Shown piece after piece: positions 1,021 through 24,693 of a stretch of 24,693 nucleotides of DNA. The notes under the pieces are model-generated. The model was not told where the DNA came from. It did not search any database and saw nothing but the letters and a program-made list of their open reading frames with translations. Position numbers and translations under genes: made by a program. Each line of letters starts with the position of its first letter. The stretch's first letter is position 1. This DNA is from Isotricha intestinalis (Eukaryota; Ciliophora; Litostomatea; Vestibuliferida; Isotrichidae), in contig JAJJLU010003913.1 in assembly GCA_023807065.1 (NCBI GenBank), positions 1 through 24,693 on the forward strand, in the 5' to 3' direction.

Positions 1021-2687
1021 TTAATCAAAAGGAGTAGGAATATTTTCATTTTTTTCATTAAAATCATTCATATTATAATGGCTAAAAAGTTAATATTAAA
1101 TTTACTTTAAAAATTGAAAATTAATTTTTGGGATTTGTTGATTTGAAATATTTTTTTTAGGTTGAGGATTAGAAAATAAAGTGTCTAAATTAACTAAACC
1201 TGTTTTCATTATTTCATTCTATAATTATTAATAAATAAAAATTACCTTAAATGAATTTCTTCTTTTATCATTTTCAGAATTTATAAATTGATTTTCATTG
1301 AAATTAGTTTGTTCATAATTATAATTATGATTTATGTATGAATTTTGATATTGATTATTATATTGATTATTATATTGATTATATTGGAAAAATTGGTTAT
1401 TATTATTTTGATTAATTTCTTGATTATTTATATTAGGATTAGTATGATAATTATATTGATTTTTATCATTATTATTTTGATTTATTATATTTATATTATT
1501 TTGATAATTCATATTATTATTTAATGTATTTATATTTTGATTTCCTATATTACTATTAAAATTACTTCTTGCATTTATAATATTTTGATTATTTAAATAA
1601 TTTTGGATATTTGGATTCATATTATTTTGATTATTATTGAAATTGTTTTTATTATTATTATAATTGAGTTGTTGACCATTAAAATTCATTTGTAAATTAT
1701 TATTTTGATTATTATCAGGAAAATTAAATTTAATTTGATTCTGTTGGAAATTATTATTGTTCATAATATTATTAGGAAAATTAAAATTCATTTGATTTTG
1801 TTGGAAATTGTTATTATTCATATTATTTTCAGGAAAATTAAATTTGATTTGATTTTGTTGAAAATTATTATTATTCATATCTGGATAATTCAAGTTCATT
1901 TGATTTTGTTGGAAATTGTTATTATTCATATTATTTTCAGGAAAATTAAAGTTCATTTGATTTTTATTAATATTTTGATTATTTTCAGGAAAATTAAATA
2001 TTTGATTTTGAAGGGAATTATTGTTTAGGATTCTAAAATTATTTTCGCTGAAATTAAAATTATTATTCTCATCATTATGTATTATATTTTTGTTCGAATT
2101 CAACTTGTTTTTATTATTTTCATTCAATTCATTATTAGACAATTTAGAATCATCATCATCTATAAATTGATCATTAAAAGTATTTCCATTATTAAAAGCA
2201 AGAGCTCTTTTATCATATTCATCAACTTTTTTATTTTCCTCTTTTAATTTTTTGTCTTTTTCTTCTTTTAATTTTTTTTCTTTTTCCTCTTTTAATTTTT
2301 TTTCTTTCAAACTTTTTAATTTTCCTGAATTTTGATCTTTTAATAGAGACATAAATGTTTTATTATTGATAGTAAAGGTAAAAATATTTTCTTTTGATTC
2401 AAAAATTTCACATTTTATTTTATCAATTTGAAATGAATACTTAAAAGGATTAATGTTTTCTTTATCTCTTAAAAATAAGATTTTTGAATCCAAACATACT
2501 TTTTTTTTTCCACTAAATTTTGAATTATAGAATTCAACCTTGTGATTCTTAGAATTTAAGTTAAATGACCATATATGTAATATTTTTGAACTATATAAGA
2601 TTAATATATATTTTACTAACTAAATATTTTGCCCACTTCTTTTTGTTCATAAGATAATTTTTCTATATCTAAAAAATCCGTTGACAT
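1021..2687 (-). CDS. FAIM-like N-terminal domain protein with Asn/Gln-rich repeats, four exons
   Basis: Exons on the minus strand are 2687-2617, 2590-1246, 1218-1106 and 1081-1021, giving about 529 aa and ending in TAA. The ATG at 2685-2687 was chosen because splicing a 26-nt intron joins it in frame to the long exon, whose own frame has no ATG near its 5' end. Residues about 25-110 read like the FAIM (Fas apoptotic inhibitory molecule) fold: a Trp-Ser-Phe strand, HKVEF, then SGKKKV, then a strand pair ending FTFTINNKTF. Ciliate genomes carry many proteins of this kind. A Lys/Glu-rich KLKEEK repeat follows, then about 300 residues dominated by Asn and Gln with a 17-20 residue repeat around FNFPENNMNNNNFQQNQ. 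The C-terminus is NIPTPFD. The domain call is by family pattern; the cellular role is unknown. Low-complexity Asn/Gln tracts often mediate self-association, but that is inference. Confidence 0.7.
1082..1105 (-). other. Spliceosomal intron 3 of the FAIM-like gene (24 nt)
   Basis: It starts GTAAATTTAA and ends ATTAACTTTTTAG. If retained it creates AAG TAA. Splicing gives AA+C (Asn) and continues HYNMNDFNEKN to a TAA at 1021. Its shape is the same as that of introns 1 and 2. Confidence 0.7.
1219..1245 (-). other. Spliceosomal intron 2 of the FAIM-like gene (27 nt)
   Basis: It starts GTAATTTTTA and ends TTAATAATTATAG. It is phase 0, after ...TTT AAG. If retained it gives an in-frame TAA, which is how the unspliced reading ends. 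Splicing continues the frame into an exon encoding NEIMKTGLVN. Confidence 0.75.
1690..1990 (-). repeat. Coding minisatellite for FNFPxNNMNNNNFQQNQ units
   Basis: About five tandem coding units of 51-57 nt are seen as repeated GGAAAATTAAA, TTGATTTTGTTGGAAATT and ATTATTATTCAT blocks on the plus strand. The translated unit is Phe-Asn-Phe-Pro-(Glu/Asp)-Asn followed by Met-Asn4-Phe-Gln2-Asn-Gln. Units differ by a few residues (PENN, PDMN, PNNI, PDNN), so this is a drifting tandem duplication inside the FAIM-like gene. Confidence 0.8.
2591..2616 (-). other. Spliceosomal intron 1 of the FAIM-like gene (26 nt)
   Basis: It starts GTAAAATATA and ends TTAATCTTATATAG on the minus strand. Its removal joins ...TTT AGT TA to T TCA AAA in one open frame. 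Without removal the exon-2 frame meets a TAG at once. A TTAAT stretch about 10 nt before the 3' end is shared with the other introns of this gene and may be the branch site. Confidence 0.75.
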
Positions 2688-3966: not shown

Positions 3967-5010
3967 TATAAATTATGTCAATTTTGTTATGATAATTGTC
4001 ATAAAAAATGTAGAATTGAATGTGAAATTGAAAAATGTATTATTTCAAAAGAAAATTCTGAAATTGAGTCTCAAAAAAAATTTTATTATGATTGTGGAAT
4101 TTTATTAAAACATTGTCCAAATTCAATAAAAAAATCAGAAATAATGCCATGTCCATTGTTACCAATTGATAAAAATTTTTTTCCAGAATAATTTTTTTTT
4201 GTCATGAAGATAATTGTTATTTATGTTCAATATGTTATTTTAATTGTCATAAAAATTGTAAAAATAAAAGTATCATAATGAATTTCATTCAATTTTCAAT
4301 GAAATAGTTTTTTTAAATTCCAAATTTATGATTATCAATCTCAATTAAAAAATAATTATTGGCCAATTCAAATGATTAATTTAATGTTTGAAGGATAAAT
4401 TTTTGATTAATTAGGAAATTTATTAAATGGAGTTTTAATTAATTATAATTCTAAGATTCCTTTTAATTCAGATCATCCTTTTTCTATATTTATTAGAACA
4501 ATTTTCAAATTTTTTTTAATAGGAAATTTAAAACTTTTTTTTATCATGAATTATATTTTTTTCTCCTAGGATTACAAACATGAAATAAGAGAACAAAGTT
4601 ACAACTTTAAACATTATTAACTTCTGGATGAATAGAATGTATATTAAAAAATAATTATCTTTTTAAATCATGGTAGATGTGGAAAGTAATTTCATTAATG
4701 TTGAAAATATTTTCTTCATGAAAGAATTAAATCTATATTTCTAAAAATATTATTAATTTGAAAAAATATTCAAAAAAATAACTATTAAGTTCATATTACT
4801 TCATTAATGAATGATATAATTATAATTTATTAATTATTATTAATTCTACATTGTTTTATCAGTAATTTTATTTGATAAAGAGAATTAAGTGAAAAACAAT
4901 AAATTCTTGGAATAAAACTTTCTAAATTTATGAAATTTCAGAAATATTTAATGTTACTCTTTTTATTATTAATCAAAATATGAATGACTTCATCTTTGAG
5001 TTCATTTTTA
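3967..5010 (+). pseudogene. Decayed UBR-box (zf-UBR) E3 ubiquitin ligase-like sequence
   Basis: In one frame from 3970, C-x2-C and CHKKC are followed by spaced Cys and then FYYDCG. That order (C..C, CH..C, then FxCDCG) is the zinc ladder of UBR boxes, which bind N-degrons. The frame stops at TAA 4189. A second Cys/His cluster with CSICYFNCHKNC follows in another frame at about 4200-4270. Further on, about 4320-4530 reads as a helical protein, interrupted by TAA at 4396 and 4408 in the same frame (FEG-stop-IFD-stop-LGNLLNGVL). Scattered readable pieces continue to about 5000, with stops and frameshifts. Several tandem UBR-like boxes in a very large protein are known from protists. Here only a remnant is left. 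The divergent TM2 gene starts just upstream. Confidence 0.55.
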
Positions 5011-5232: not shown

Positions 5233-6351
5233 TTAAGAATTATTTTCTGAAGGTTTTTCATCTATTATTAAATTGTTTATGTCTGTTATTGTCATTTCTA
5301 TTGGATTTTTATCTTGAAATTGTATATTTTTTGGTTTTTCTTTTTCATTTTCAAGTTTATCTATATCTTTTTCACCTTCTTCTTTATTTTGTTTTAAATT
5401 ACTTTTTTTTTGTTCTGTTATAAATAATAATTCGTTATTATTATTATTATTTATTTTAGAAGGAGAATTATCTTCACTTGAAATATTATTTAATTTCTTT
5501 CTTTTTTCAGTTTTTTTTATTAATTCATCTTTTCTAATTTGATTTCCTTTATTTTGTAATAATTCTTGTTTTTTCATAATTTCTTCAGTTAATCTTTTTA
5601 TTTCTTTTTCATTATAAAGAACAATATTTTTATATTCATTTTCTTCTTTTTCATATAATTGTTCTTCTTCTTCAATTTCATTTTTTAATTTTAAAATTTC
5701 TTCTTCATAATTTATTTGTTTTTCTTTTTCTTTTCCTAAAGGACCATCTCCTTTTATTAAATTTATTCTTTCTTTAATTTTATTAATTGTTGAATTTAAA
5801 TTTGAATAAGTTAATCTTTGTTCTTTTAATTTTTCTTCATATTCTCTACTTTTCTTTTCAAGTTCTTTTAACTCTGATTTCATTGATTGTATTTTTTCTA
5901 AAGTTTTATCTTCATTTTTTATATCAAATTTCATTGATATATTATTTATTTCTTTTACTTGATTATTATAAATATTTACTAAAGATATTTTTTCTTTATT
6001 TAAATCATTTATTTTATCATTTTCTTCTTTTAATTTATTTTTTAAATCAGTTATTTTATTTACTCCTAAAATATTATCTATTTGAAAATTCTTTTTCTTT
6101 ATTTCATCTGAATAATATTCTATTTTCTTATTTATTTCTTCTAATTCATTATCTTTTTCTTTTGAATAATATTTATTTGTATACTCTGCATTTATTAATC
6201 TTTTTGAATTTACATTTTGATTTCTAAATTCAAATATTTTTTGCTTTATAAATTCTATTTGGGCTTTTAATTCTTTATTTTTTGCTTGTAGTTGTTCTTT
6301 CTTTCTAAATTATAAAAAATTAATTTACAATTGAGCATTTTGATTAATCAT
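5233..6351 (-). CDS. Coiled-coil protein, two exons, family not recognised
   Basis: Exon 1 is 6351-6329 (MINQNAQ and the first two bases of a Leu codon). Exon 2 is 6304-5233, ending in TAA. Together they encode 364 aa. The start was set by splicing a 24-nt intron, which extends the frame far upstream of the first internal ATG at 5934. Residues about 8-290 are nearly continuous heptad-like Glu/Lys/Leu/Ile sequence broken by one GDGPLGKEK turn in the middle. The tail is Asn-rich and then charged (KEKPKNIQFQDK). This is the profile of an axonemal, basal-body or other cytoskeletal coiled-coil protein. No family-specific motif is visible, so the function is left open. Confidence 0.75.
6305..6328 (-). 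other. Spliceosomal intron of the coiled-coil gene (24 nt)
   Basis: It starts GTAAATTAAT and ends ATAATTTAG on the minus strand. If retained it gives TTG TAA. Removal gives TT+A (Leu) and AAG AAA GAA CAA, joining the ATG at 6351 to the long exon. Confidence 0.75.
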
Positions 6352-6499
6352 TTAAAAAAAATATATAAAAAAAATATAAAAAATCTAAAAAAGAAAAAAA
6401 AAATAAATCAGATTTTAATTATATAAAAACAATAATAACATATAAAAAAAACTTAACATAATACAAAAAAAATATATATATACAAAGGAAAAAACATAA

Positions 6500-8088
6500 A
6501 CATTTATTTTTTTTTCTCGATTCCCTCCATTGAAGAATTGAGTAAAATCTGATTATCCTCCATTAAAGAAATTTCCAAAATCTCCAAAATTACCATCAGA
6601 ACTAGTGGTAAAGAAAGTTTGTTCATTTCCCAGAGTTTCATTTCCTCCAAAGAACATTTTAAAATTTTACTAGGATTCCCAGGAAAATGTATGCTCAAAC
6701 CATCATCACCTCATATGCCACCTGTGTCACCCATTGAAATTTTTTGAGGATTTAAAGGATCTACTCCCATATCATTCATTTGTTTCTTTTTAGGATTAAA
6801 CATAGTATGCATCACAAATATTTTCAAAATTCCTTTGAGCTACTTTTTTACTTTGTTCACTTTCTGAATTTCTATCTGGATGATTTTTCAATGCCTATTT
6901 ACGATATGATTTCTTTATTTATTTAGGACTTGTACTTCGATCTACTCCTAATATTGAGTAATAGTCACTATTACGAGCTCTGGGCCATGTGTCTCATTCA
7001 CTATTAGGTATACTCTTTTCCTTCCATTTCGTATGTTGGACTTGTTCTTTTAATCATATTTGATTTTTTTATTTAATATATCTATCTCTTTGTTACTTGA
7101 GTCTAAATTCTTTTCTTCTTGAATATCGTGGATTGTATCATCATAAATCTTCAAATCTTTATATATATTTCCTAGACTAAGAAATAATGTCACATATTTT
7201 GAATTAAATTTAACGCTTCATCTACATCTTTTAATGCATCTCTTAATTTATTTTATCTTTTATAATATAAAGCACTATTTGTTAATATTATATTTGAAAA
7301 TTATTATTTTCAGAATCATAATCTAATAATTTAGTTTATTATGTGATTGCTTCTTCTATTTTACCATCTTTAAATGAAGAATTTACTTTTTTTTTGCTTT
7401 CAATTCCATTTATATAATTTAATAATTTTTTATATTTTTCTTCTTCCATTTCTTTTTGCATTAATGTATTTATTGTTGTTTTTACATCTAACAATCACCT
7501 TTGAACTATGCTTTTGCTAATAATTATAAAAATTAGTGGTCTCTATTTTTATCATCTGAAGATACTTTTGAATTAACATAATATTTCATCTTTAAATTTA
7601 CAATTTCCAAGAAGAGATTCAATATCAATTTGTTTAAGAGTTGCAAAAAAAGGAGCATCAGTTAATTATTGATTATATAAAGTTTTCACATCTTCCCATT
7701 TTCTATTCTTCTCATTTTATTTTCATAACCAGAAATTTATTTTTTAATTCTATTTAATTCTGTTGAATAAGATGAATCATTAGGTTCTAAAGTAACAATT
7801 TTTGAATAAGCATTTGAGCTTCACAGAAATTCCAATTCAAATATAAACGCTTGCTGTTTTTTTTAAATTTTTAGTATTTTTTGGATTAAATTGAATTACT
7901 TTTTAATAATCATTAAGTGATTCTCTATATATTTCCTAAAAGTTTTAAACATATTATTCTATGCATTTAATATTGTTTCTTTTGGGTTTAAATCCAATAC
8001 TCTTGTATATTAATCAAATGCTGTATTATAATTTCCTTTTTTAAATTCAATATTTCATTACTCTTTTATTTTTTTTCCAATTTGACAT
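6500..8088 (-). pseudogene. Decayed DNAJC7-like co-chaperone (TPR repeats plus J domain)
   Basis: Reading the minus strand from an ATG at 8088, TPR-like pieces appear in changing frames: YNTAFD-stop-YTRVLDLNP near 8000, ESLNDY-stop-KVIQFNPKN near 7880, and IVTLEPND near 7790. A clear J domain follows at about 6970-6780: DYYSILGVDRS, IKKSYRK, ALKNHPDRN (HPD at 6882-6874) and a FENICDAYYV helix. A Gly/Phe-rich tail (MFFGGNE, NFGDFGNFFNGG) follows at about 6660-6510. The order TPR, J domain, G/F matches DNAJC7/TPR2-type Hsp40s, which pass clients between Hsp70 and Hsp90. Many in-frame stops (TAA 6921-6919, TAG 6897-6895, TGA 6713-6711) and several frameshifts show that it is broken. A short ORF at 6504-6698 on the same strand is out of frame with the tail and is not a gene. 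Confidence 0.8.
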
Positions 8089-8297
8089 ATTTAAATTTTA
8101 ACTTTTTTTAAAAAAAAGTTTTTTATTTTTTTTATTATTTGAATTTTTCCATATTTTCAAATCTTATTTTTTTATTTTTATATTTTTTTTTTATTTTTTT
8201 TTGATTTTTATGTTTAATAATGTTAGTTTATTATTATACTAATAATAAATAAGAAATTAAAAAATATTTATATATATAAATTTTTCAAAAAATTTTC

Positions 8298-14286: not shown

Positions 14287-15296
14287 ATGGAATTAAAAAT
14301 AAGAGATATAAATAATCCTATTGATAAATGGGAATTAAGGTAATTAAAAAATAATTTTTAGAGTATTTAATAAATAATTTAAGTGTGTATAAAATTAAAA
14401 ATGAATAAGACTGTAAGAATATTTAATAATAATAATAGGGAATATAATAATAATAATAATAATATAAAATAAAATAATGAATAAGTAAGTAATAATAATA
14501 AGAAAAAAGTTTGTAAATGATTAAAATAAAAAAAGTGGGTAAAATTGAAATAAAAAAAGAAAGTAAATAAAAATTAAAAAATAAAAAGGAGTAATTTAAA
14601 TAAATAAAAAGATAGGAAGTATAAAAATATATAATATTTAGAAAGTAAATTAAAAAATAAAAATAAGAAAGTAAAAAATAATAATAAAATATTAGCCAGT
14701 AATATAATATTATTAATTAATTATAGGAAGTAATATAATATTATTAATTAATTATAGTTAGTAATATAATATTATTAATTAATTATAGGATGTAATATAA
14801 TATTATTAATTAATTATAGTGGGTAATATAATATTATTAATTAATTATAGGGAGTAATATAATATTATTAATTAATTATAGGAAGTAATATAATATTATT
14901 AATTAATTATAGGAAGTATAAAAATATTATTAATAGTAGATAGTATTTTTATGATTTAATACTTTAGTGTGAAGATGTATTTAAATATTTTATTTTAGGA
15001 TTTAAATATTATTATTTAATTTATTAGAAAGTAATTAATATTAATAATATTAGCCTGTATTTAATTTAATAATTATAGTGTGTATTTAATAAAAATATAA
15101 ACTATATAGCCAGTAAATTAAAAATAATTTAAGAAAGTAAAAAATTATTTAAAAAAAGTGTGTAAATATTTATTATAATTGAAGGGAGTAAAATAATGAT
15201 TATAATTAAAGAATGTATAATATTTAAATATATTTGTTAGAAGGGAGTATTTTGATTTATATAATTTCAAAGAAATCAAAACATAAAAACAATTAA
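14287..15296 (+). CDS. Micro-exon gene: small zinc-ribbon-like protein split by about 31 introns of 21-28 nt
   Basis: Exon 1 (ATG 14287 to 14339) encodes MELKIRDINNPIDKWEL plus AG. Then come 31 GTA...AG segments of 21-28 nt, e.g. 14340-14361, 14363-14383, 14387-14409. Almost all are separated by exactly three bases: TGT 14384, ACT 14410, TTT 14510, TGG 14536, CCA 14696, TTA 14758, GAT 14789, TGG 14820, GGA 14851, ATA 14940, CCT 15054, TGT 15079, CCA 15110, TGT 15159, GGA 15185. The joined triplets read C-T-G-x-FWK, then EKKPELDWGEEICED, then KPCPKCGNKGKSKHKNN and TAA at 15294-15296, about 59 codons. This resembles a zinc ribbon with CPKC as the second Cys pair. By hand count the triplets are about one third G+C; the introns are about 7-15%. 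Irregular places: a lost 5' splice site and a TAA triplet at 14439-14488, a 2-nt spacer at 14589-14590, and a lost site near 14999. It is therefore an active gene with small assembly errors, or one beginning to decay. Confidence 0.75.
14439..14512 (+). other. Irregular unit of the micro-exon array (lost donor site, TAA triplet)
   Basis: After intron 14413-14438 the expected triplet is GGA (14439-14441). The next 44 bases, to AAG at 14485, contain no GT. They are an (AAT)n-rich stretch that looks like an intron, or two, that lost its donor. The next triplet, 14486-14488, is TAA. It lies exactly where a C-x2-C pair would need the second Cys (C-T-G-x-F-W-K). The following segment 14489-14509 is GTA...AG, but unlike the other 3n-long introns it has no in-frame stop. 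Confidence 0.6.
14699..14912 (+). repeat. Seven identical 28-nt introns in a row, separated by different codons
   Basis: Copies are at 14699-14726, 14730-14757, 14761-14788, 14792-14819, 14823-14850, 14854-14881 and 14885-14912. Each starts GTAATATAATATT, ends TTAATTAATTATAG and is identical over all 28 bases by eye. The triplets between them are GAA, TTA, GAT, TGG, GGA and GAA, and they encode E-L-D-W-G-E of the zinc-ribbon-like protein. The 31-nt period is therefore intron plus one codon. Confidence 0.93.
14999..15027 (+). other. Second irregular unit of the micro-exon array
   Basis: Between AG 14998 and the triplet AAA 15028 lie 29 bases starting GATTTAAATATT and ending TTTATTAG. They contain no GT. 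Either GAT is a codon followed by a 26-nt intron that lost its donor, or 14977-15027 is spliced as one 51-nt intron. Both readings keep the frame: ICED-D-KPCP or ICED-KPCP. Confidence 0.55.
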
Positions 15297-22489: not shown

Positions 22490-24693
22490 TAAAAAATGAT
22501 ATTTAGAGCAAACTTTTTCTTATATTGTTTAAAAACAATTATATAATATTTTTTGATATTTGATTCTTCAAATAATCAATTATTAATACTTTTATTATTA
22601 TCATATCATATTTTAAAAAATAAAAAAATTAATTCTTCTTTTAATACAATTTAAGTTAAGTTAATTTTATTTTTTTTCATTAATTTAAATAAAGTTTTAA
22701 TATATAAAGCTCCAAACACATCTAATTTTAAAATATATTTTAAAAATAATATTAATATTAATTATTTTCCTTAGCCTAAATAAAGGTAAAAAATTTAATT
22801 TTCCAAATTAGATATGTATAAAATCTACTAAAAGAATTACTCTATCATTATAGAAATATATTTTAAATAAAAATTAAAATAAACTAGATAATTAAGGTCA
22901 AATTGTTCAAGAATTAAATATTCATTTTTTTTTTTTTTGAGTAAAAGATTAAACTCAAAATTTTTTTTTCTCATTAAATATAATGTCTACATTACTATAA
23001 TAATGTTTAAATAAACTTAAAAAAAAATACATTTTCATTAATTTTGGTGAAGGATAGTTAAATATTGGTTCTTTAAATTCTATTTCTTTAATATATATTA
23101 TAAATGTTCACTAGATATAATATAAGAAATATAATATTCTTTACTTTTATAAAATTCTATTTTATAGAGATTTATTAATATTTCCTCATTTTCTAAAAAT
23201 AATGATTTATTTATATCTTTGAACTAAATTTTTAATTTTGCTTTTAATAAAAATACATTATCTTTTTATATATTCATTTATTTTAATTCTGCTTTATAAT
23301 ATTTGAATTGTTTATAAATAAAGATTATTGATATCCCTTTTTCATGATATAATCATATCATTTAAATTTTTTTGAATTTTCATAATCATATTCTCATTTT
23401 TTACTTTATAATGATTAATTATTTTAAATTTTTGGTTCTTTCATAATTTTTATTTCTGATTCAATAATAATTATTATATTTAGTTGAAATAATATTTTTC
23501 AGTTGAGGATCAATTTTCATTGTTATTAAATTACATTCATTTTTTACATATAATATTGAATCTGAATCATAATTTATTTATCTTTAATTATATTTTTTAT
23601 ACTTTCTTTATTTTCAATGTTTAAATAGTAATGTATTATATTTTCTAAATCCTCTTTTAATTGTCTCTTTCTAATAAAATTGCATTTTCATTTTTTTCTT
23701 CTAAATTAATTTCATTATTAAATTTTTTTTCTGTGTGAAAAGAATAAATTAAAAAAATATTAATAAACTTCTCATTATTATTTTCTAAATTTAATTTATA
23801 TTTATTAAAAGAACAATACTTAAAGTATCAAGATTAATTAATTCTTCATTATTTAAATCACCATTTTTTTTAACAAAATAAAATTTTTGAGTTTTATTTT
23901 CATTTTTTTCTTTTGATTTAAATTGTAGTTTATCTTCAAATAATTCTTTAATTTCTTTATCCATATTTTCTTCTTCATCATTAGAATTATTTAAATTAAT
24001 AAACATTTGATTAAAAGAAAAATAATTTATAATAAATTGAATTATATTTTCAATTTCTTTAGACAATTATTAATTGAACTTAAATGATTAATTTGTATAT
24101 TAATTTGATTATCTTCTTCTACTAATCAATATATGAATTAATCTTTGTATACTTTTCAAATATTTTTTTATTAGAAGAAGCAAAAGAAACATTTAGAAAA
24201 ATTATATTTTCATTTGAAATACAAGATGTAAAATTAAAAGTCATTAATTCATCATTTCTTTTTTGCTCCATTAAATATAAGTTTATTACTTTCTTCATTA
24301 TTATTCCATCTTTAATAATAAATTCTTCTTGATTTTGAATAATCTATATTAGCATTATCTTTATTTAAATATCCATTTTTAATATCATAAAATGTAAGTA
24401 ATTCATAAATATTCTTGATTTATTCAATAAATCTTTCATTTTCTCAATTTCTTCTTCTTCTTCGTCTAAATTTCTTAATTTTTTTATTTGTAAATTACTT
24501 GAAACTATATTAGTAGCTAAATCAAATAATTCTAAAACATTGTAATTTAATTCAATAACTCTATTAATCATTTTATTAATTATTATCATAATTAAATTAA
24601 ATAAGTTTTCTCTTTGATTTTTTTGAACTTGTATAGAAATATTAGGTTCTTTAATTAAATTAGATATTTGTTTAATTCCTTTTATATTTCTTT
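22490..24693 (-). pseudogene. Large decayed or frameshifted coding sequence, family not recognised, runs off the window
   Basis: The minus strand carries consecutive readable blocks in changing frames. An open block runs from the window edge to 24365 (SNLIKEPNISIQVQKNQREN, FDLATNIVSSNL, LDEEEEEIEKMKDLL). Next is a block with LMTFNFTSCISNENIIFL near 24250, then 24066-23791 with IQFIINYFSFNQMF and FYFVKKNGDLNNEE. Later come IEFKEPIFNYPSPKL near 23070 and LKLDVFGALYIKTLFKLM near 22730. The composition is that of a large helical, membrane-associated or scaffold protein. Breaks every 100-300 bases speak for a pseudogene, although unrecognised 25-nt introns could repair some joins. I cannot name the protein. 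Confidence 0.45.

Follow-up and report, generated by a model that had tools for sequence, protein, structure and literature searches.

Can a protein-coding gene be interrupted after almost every codon? The question is raised by a contig of the ciliate Isotricha intestinalis (assembly GCA_023807065.1, contig JAJJLU010003913.1), whose 24,693 nucleotides (nt) constitute the window analysed here and which is numbered C1349 among the 2153 contigs of the 57.3 Mb genome. On the plus strand of the window, positions 14340-15272 of very AT-rich DNA hold a chain of short segments that start with GTA, end with AG and are almost always separated by 3-nt spacers. An earlier note on this DNA had proposed a real gene cut into single-codon exons. 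This proposal is supported, more by related loci elsewhere in the genome than by the window alone, with the splicing itself predicted from the sequence. Very probably, the window contains a worn copy from a gene family that encodes a Cys-rich domain, one codon per exon, between spliced GTA..AG introns of about 21-28 nt.

Structure of the locus

The chain is real and lies where the earlier note had placed it. When GTA..AG segments of 18-32 nt with exactly 3 nt between them are required, the longest run in 14287-15296 comprises 13 introns, compared with a maximum of 3 in 1000 dinucleotide shuffles of the same interval, of 1 on the rest of the plus strand and of 2 on the minus strand of the window. 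A scoring parse, which is biased toward GT..AG ends and 3-nt exons, divides the chain into 34 segments and 33 inner exons. The proposed number of about 31 introns agrees with the 31 segments that are GT..AG, but falls short of the total, and 30 rather than all of the inner exons have 3 nt.

The locus, entirely on the plus strand, starts with an exon at 14287-14339 that is open from its ATG and encodes MELKIRDINNPIDKWEL, followed by the first two bases of an Arg codon; a near copy of this exon is present in contig C1460 (MELKIRVIENPIDKWEL). Intron 1 (14340-14361; 22 nt, GTAAT..TAG) is followed at 14362 by a single-base exon, A, which completes the Arg codon. The same 1-nt exon, completing an Arg or a Lys codon, occurs in 9 of the 18 sequences of the window's family (family 1, see below), the window included and several sequences being without the gene start. 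Introns with the codons TGT, ACT and GGA, among them the first Cys, occupy 14363-14441. They are followed by a damaged stretch (14442-14509), where the 5' splice signal is ATA instead of GTA, the second Cys codon is missing and a TAA triplet is found at 14486-14488; at the matching place, C748 reads GGA GTA..AG TGT. According to the parse, the introns and exons TTT TGG AAA (GA) GAA AAA AAA CCA extend over 14510-14698, the exon at 14589-14590 having only 2 nt.

The array at 14699-14915 consists of seven introns with one codon after each, and the spacers around these introns read CCA GAA TTA GAT TGG GGA GAA GAA. All seven introns of this run (14699-14912) have the same 28-nt sequence, and the intron interiors therefore do not all differ, as had been described. 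In the second block (14916-15272), introns alternate with the codons ATA, TGT GAA GAT, GAT, AAA and CCT TGT CCA AAA TGT GGA AAT GGA, which include CPKCG; the segment at 15002-15027 begins with TT, not GT. The last exon (15273-15296) encodes KSKHKNN and ends with a stop codon. The window copy is not as cleanly open as had been claimed earlier, given the TAA triplet, the lost splice signals and second Cys, the 2-nt exon and the TT start. The window copy looks worn and partly decayed, and its frame would be kept if the damaged units were skipped.

Occurrence of single-codon genes in the genome

The single-codon plan recurs elsewhere in the genome. A search pattern in which GTA..AG segments are separated by triplets, three in all, has 254 matches in the genome, versus 3 for a reversed control pattern. 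Among the matches listed, hand-merged lists place the plan on at least 55 of the contigs, of which about three single matches could be due to chance. A total of 31 loci, including the window, was examined. Family 1 (18 loci) is recognised by a WELR-C start and/or a CPxCG end, with C21 and C398 being divergent, and family 2 (nine loci) by an FKC start and/or a C-x2-C-x-Y end, with C1465 and C1834 available as short pieces only. C281 and C826, two copies of family 1 that look intact, have 63 and 72 introns, respectively. The remaining four loci (C72, C519, C546 and C570) are other single-codon genes. The gene in C546 (L062) is of another kind: it is rich in Lys and Glu (IEELLEKYPLEQTNEAEFEIIGEP...), and its division into single codons follows phase 0, with 33 adjacent pairs and 0 in-frame stops. 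Thus, the habit reaches beyond the families with Cys pairs. Viral contigs gave 3 pattern matches, which have no chain of five or more introns and 35-43% GC, and these were taken as chance.

The spacer triplets are codons

Stop codons were counted only in triplets flanked on both sides by a canonical segment, and no coding filter was applied. Read in the frame given by the upstream exon, family 1 has 0 stops in 505 triplets from 18 loci, while 2000 letter shuffles gave 52 stops on average and never fewer than 32; random triplet chains, which the earlier note had considered as a potential match for the joined peptide, are therefore not equally good. In the three frames of 372 adjacent pairs, 0, 12 and 54 stops are found. 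In family 2, 27 of 177 triplets are stops as written. The upstream exon of this family, however, ends with TG, the first two bases of a Cys codon, in all eight loci where it was located, the TG end having formed part of the search for these exons. In the phase set by the upstream exon, 138 pairs of family-2 triplets contain 0 stops, versus 19 and 7 in the other frames. In both families, removal of the segments restores a single reading frame, and at least two gene families exist that are cut in different codon phases. The stops per frame in C72 (1, 0, 1), C519 (2, 0, 0) and C570 (4, 0, 3) follow the pattern of family 2, and those in C546 (0, 1, 10) that of family 1.

The joined peptide is also conserved. 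A codon table of the first block covers eight family-1 loci (left out are the damaged window, C21, C398, C891, C1201, C1618, loci without the start in the sequence, and the first two codons of C661). It shows the two Cys residues in 7/7 and 8/8, Gly and Pro each in 8/8, Tyr, Phe and Lys each in 7/8 and Trp in 6/8 loci. For the second block, the table includes 12 loci, without C398, C515, C891, C1201, C1460 and C1618; C-P-x-C is present in 12/12 and the Gly in 10/12, values that are partly circular where the locus was found by CPxCG. Conserved columns carry synonymous variants (TGT/TGC, CCA/CCT/CCC and GGA/GGG/GGT). Intron interiors in matching slots are 0.617 identical versus 0.608 in unmatched slots (six loci, 225 comparisons), a similarity that does not exceed chance, and codon slots reach 0.696. 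In 13/13 loci, the last exon stays in frame up to a stop codon, with K-x-x-H/Y in ten of these, including KEAH in three. The spacer triplets are thus codons, as they are stop-free in one frame only, encode conserved residues and lead into an in-frame tail.

The hypervariable middle array

The array between the two blocks has near-identical introns, with a mean pairwise identity of 0.84-1.0 in six loci, while the codons of different units share only 0.32-0.37 of their bases. Out of 13 loci, these are the six in which six or more introns resemble the commonest intron of the locus to over 80%, and the high intron identity is partly due to this selection, since both introns and loci were chosen for likeness. 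In C826, a block of 11 codons is duplicated with 94.9% identity and its corresponding introns are 0.94 alike, versus 0.83 for the others, which indicates that blocks of units duplicate. The second block and flank of the window share 87% identity with those of C1705, but the arrays of the two differ, with seven units in the window (PELDWGE) versus 35 in C1705. Two family-2 arrays, L058 (C439) and L064 (C589), contain introns of mostly exactly 33 nt, as compared to the 28-mer of family 1.

Intron character

The array introns have a mean length of 25-28 nt depending on the family, end with TAG in 410/578 and with AAG in 154/578 cases, and have 5% G+C inside, a GTA start being required in this set. 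Parses took in 13 of the 18 family-1 loci, and 573 of the 672 parsed segments are GT..AG. Introns are few in the ordinary genes of the window, but the clear ones share ends and length with the array introns: the gene at 1021-2687 (-) has three introns of 26, 27 and 24 nt (GTA..TAG) and the gene at 5233-6351 (-) has one of 24 nt (GTAA..TTAG), which confirms the earlier description of introns of 24-27 nt in nearby genes. Two further predicted introns in small models, of 28 nt at 3975-4191 (+) and of 35 nt at 23657-24006 (-), are doubtful. A set of 49 gene models contains 20 introns in 20,180 codons, eight of them with GTA; these numbers give an order of magnitude only, the models overlapping on both strands and several introns probably being artefacts beside masked stretches. 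Prp8 is encoded in one open frame of 2473 amino acids, and four copies of L32e are unbroken over the matched 107 residues. The GTA..AG segments have the GT..AG ends and the host-like length of spliceosomal introns, and are most likely spliced out as such.

At several loci, including L010 (C826), L009 (C538) and L059 (C453), segments recur that start with ATAAG instead of GTAAG, or end with TG instead of AG. Some non-canonical segments repeat at matching places in related loci.

Alternative explanations

Concerning the origin of the segments, they could be mobile introns (introners) that entered an ordinary gene between its codons, with the one-codon spacing as a by-product. This explanation is compatible with splicing and finds some support in the occurrence of the same intron sequence at several loci, but is rather unlikely. 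Transposon-type introners produce target-site duplications, whereas direct repeats at the segment boundaries do not exceed chance: 376 of 578 segments have none versus 381 expected, and the distribution is chance-like. The 27-mer core of the intron that is repeated in the window array has 12 exact matches in the genome, on five contigs that all bear arrays, without any sign of spread into other genes. Furthermore, insertion leaves the constant 3-nt spacing and the single phase per family unexplained, while duplication of a unit of intron plus codon explains both. Introners are known in many eukaryotes (PMC9860276).

The segments could alternatively be germline DNA that is eliminated during nuclear development, so that the codons would be joined in the DNA of the working genome. 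Both ultra-short introns and eliminated sequences occur in ciliates, and all evidence for triplets as codons fits equally well with joining in the DNA. Eliminated sequences are, however, usually bordered by short direct repeats, and the chance-level repeats reported above as well as the asymmetric GT..AG ends, which are those of the clear ordinary introns in this genome, render DNA elimination improbable.

Even less probable is that the chains are remnants which have ceased to be read, in gene copies undergoing decay or in repeat arrays that yield no functional product. The damaged window copy and the many segments without GT or AG at several loci, most of them in C231 (21/95), point in this direction, but the 505 triplets without a stop at 18 loci and the open upstream kinase, protease and B-box frames would not outlast general decay. 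Decay may nevertheless apply to single copies, including that of the window. An origin of the chain as a satellite, already disfavoured in the earlier note, or by chance is rejected on the basis of the shuffles, of the control with the reversed pattern and of the stop-codon counts.

Proposed mechanism

The preferred explanation is splicing of single-codon exons. Each short intron would be recognised individually (intron definition), and the introns would be removed one after the other, similar to what has been proposed for Arabidopsis APC11, where splicing of a 1-nt exon is possible and stepwise removal by intron definition was suggested (PMC4674806). A unit is always one intron plus three bases, and its gain, loss or skipping would alter the protein by one residue without a frame shift. 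Arrays would have grown by duplication and deletion of units, in part by block duplication between near-identical introns. If a splice site is lost, joining of the neighbouring exons would drop a single codon, and defective units would thus be tolerated. Units of this kind would account for the constant spacing, the single phase within a family, the different phases between families and the tolerance of defective units.

Several observations weigh against this explanation. About 15% of the parsed segments (99/672) are without GT or AG, with ATA, GAA and TTA starts and TG ends, even though the parse favours GT..AG ends and 3-nt exons. The ratio of nonsynonymous to synonymous differences (pN/pS), which agrees in direction with the conservation but is a weak test here, is 0.54 in frame for the first block, compared with 0.64 and 1.07 in the shifted frames, and rises to 0.77 when the second block is added. 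A profile of eight rows detected no homologue of the joined peptide at E <= 1 among 329 candidates, and the intron-poor orthologue that the earlier note had suggested looking for was not found in this set. Models of zinc ribbons remain below their cut-offs, the best match of three peptides being Zn_ribbon_8 with 17.7 versus 34.4 bits. The window copy itself is damaged. Finally, some loci were picked via the CPxCG or FKC motifs, and the conservation of these motifs is partly circular there; loci from the chain pattern with its 254 matches are free of this bias.

Domain and gene architecture

The Cys-rich domain is predicted to bind zinc and to serve in recognition, with a putative hypervariable loop between two Cys pairs, and would be either linked to a kinase, B-box or trypsin-like module or produced on its own. 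Upstream of family 1, C148 encodes a protein kinase and a B-box, and C826 a kinase and a B-box below the cut-off. C18 contains a Cys-rich protein with a sub-threshold B-box match only, and C1618 a fragment of a protein similar to this one. The upstream protein of C21, with 484 amino acids, has no match above the cut-off. In the window, C1460, C231, C281, C453 and C661, only a short leader precedes the domain. Five upstream proteins of family 2 were scanned and Trypsin_2 was detected in four of them, above the cut-off in C2, C1294 and C1465 and below it in C439; C94 has no match. In C1834, a GSSGSP motif was recognised by eye only. A kinase and a B-box also precede the single-codon stretch of C519, and a B-box that of C72 and C570. 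These modules are suggestive of proteins in which a signalling or effector part is coupled to a recognition part that varies.

In L051 (C72), L061 (C519) and L063 (C570), the single-codon stretch lies inside a B-box or kinase/B-box gene and is followed by an open last exon of about 90-95 codons.

A codon-cassette system for diversity, in which each residue of the recognition loop has its own exon, is a tentative and less likely extension of this architecture. With all exons in a fixed phase, recombination between near-identical introns and the skipping of any subset of exons would allow single residues to be gained, lost or reshuffled in frame. One cell might thus produce a repertoire of loop variants which, fused to kinase, protease and B-box modules, might recognise self, prey or pathogens.

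The abundance of Trp was considered as a sign of a binding loop, but was not retained. Trp accounts for 32 of 505 codons in family 1 versus 12 of 3234 ordinary codons. TGG is also frequent as written in family 2 (14/177), yet none of the 138 family-2 codons encodes Trp. As TGG is common in a phase that does not encode Trp, the excess may partly reflect a preference for this sequence in exons.

Comparison with known systems

Among the matches listed in open-licence PubMed Central papers, preprints not included, no gene with runs of single-codon exons was found. A 3-base-pair microexon of Drosophila homothorax encodes one residue, as the exons here do, but is a single, alternatively spliced exon without an array (PMC7392893). 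The 1-nt exon of APC11 (PMC4674806) is one exon in one gene, compared with dozens of tiny exons in a row here. The bicycle genes of aphids resemble the arrays as a fast-evolving family with many microexons, more than 100 in the megacycle gene; many very small exons and fast-evolving paralogues are also found here. In contrast, excerpts of the aphid study (PMC9168663) give no sign of single-codon exons or near-identical introns, and these are animal genes with no known shared domain. The introns of Paramecium, Nyctotherus and Stentor are AT-rich and about 25 nt long, like those described here, and are exceptionally small in Stentor, but an intron after every codon is not reported in the sections available of these studies (PMC5014332, PMC2633312, PMC9505925). 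Rubredoxin-like and zinc-ribbon domains in Pfam share the two C-x2-C pairs, the second being CPxCG, but all scores here are under the curated cut-offs and the middle part is very variable in length.

If spliced as predicted, these genes would constitute a new extreme of exon size and intron density, with approximately one intron per codon, and they coexist with genes such as Prp8, with its 2473 codons in one open frame. They make it possible to test the minimum exon size under intron definition, the order in which neighbouring introns are removed, and the role of introns as joints for a residue-by-residue evolution of proteins. Ordinary gene prediction is expected to overlook such genes.

A neighbouring gene remnant

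Remnants of a DnaJ-like gene are located at 6400-8200 (-) of the window and carry TAA and TAG at positions where Gln is expected. A piece of 57 amino acids (6799-6969, -), translated with code table 6, matches DnaJ with 60.9 bits. Since TAA or TAG serves as the stop in those long open frames of the window that were checked, the remnant appears to be a decayed gene that came from an organism using a ciliate-like code, or the trace of an earlier code.
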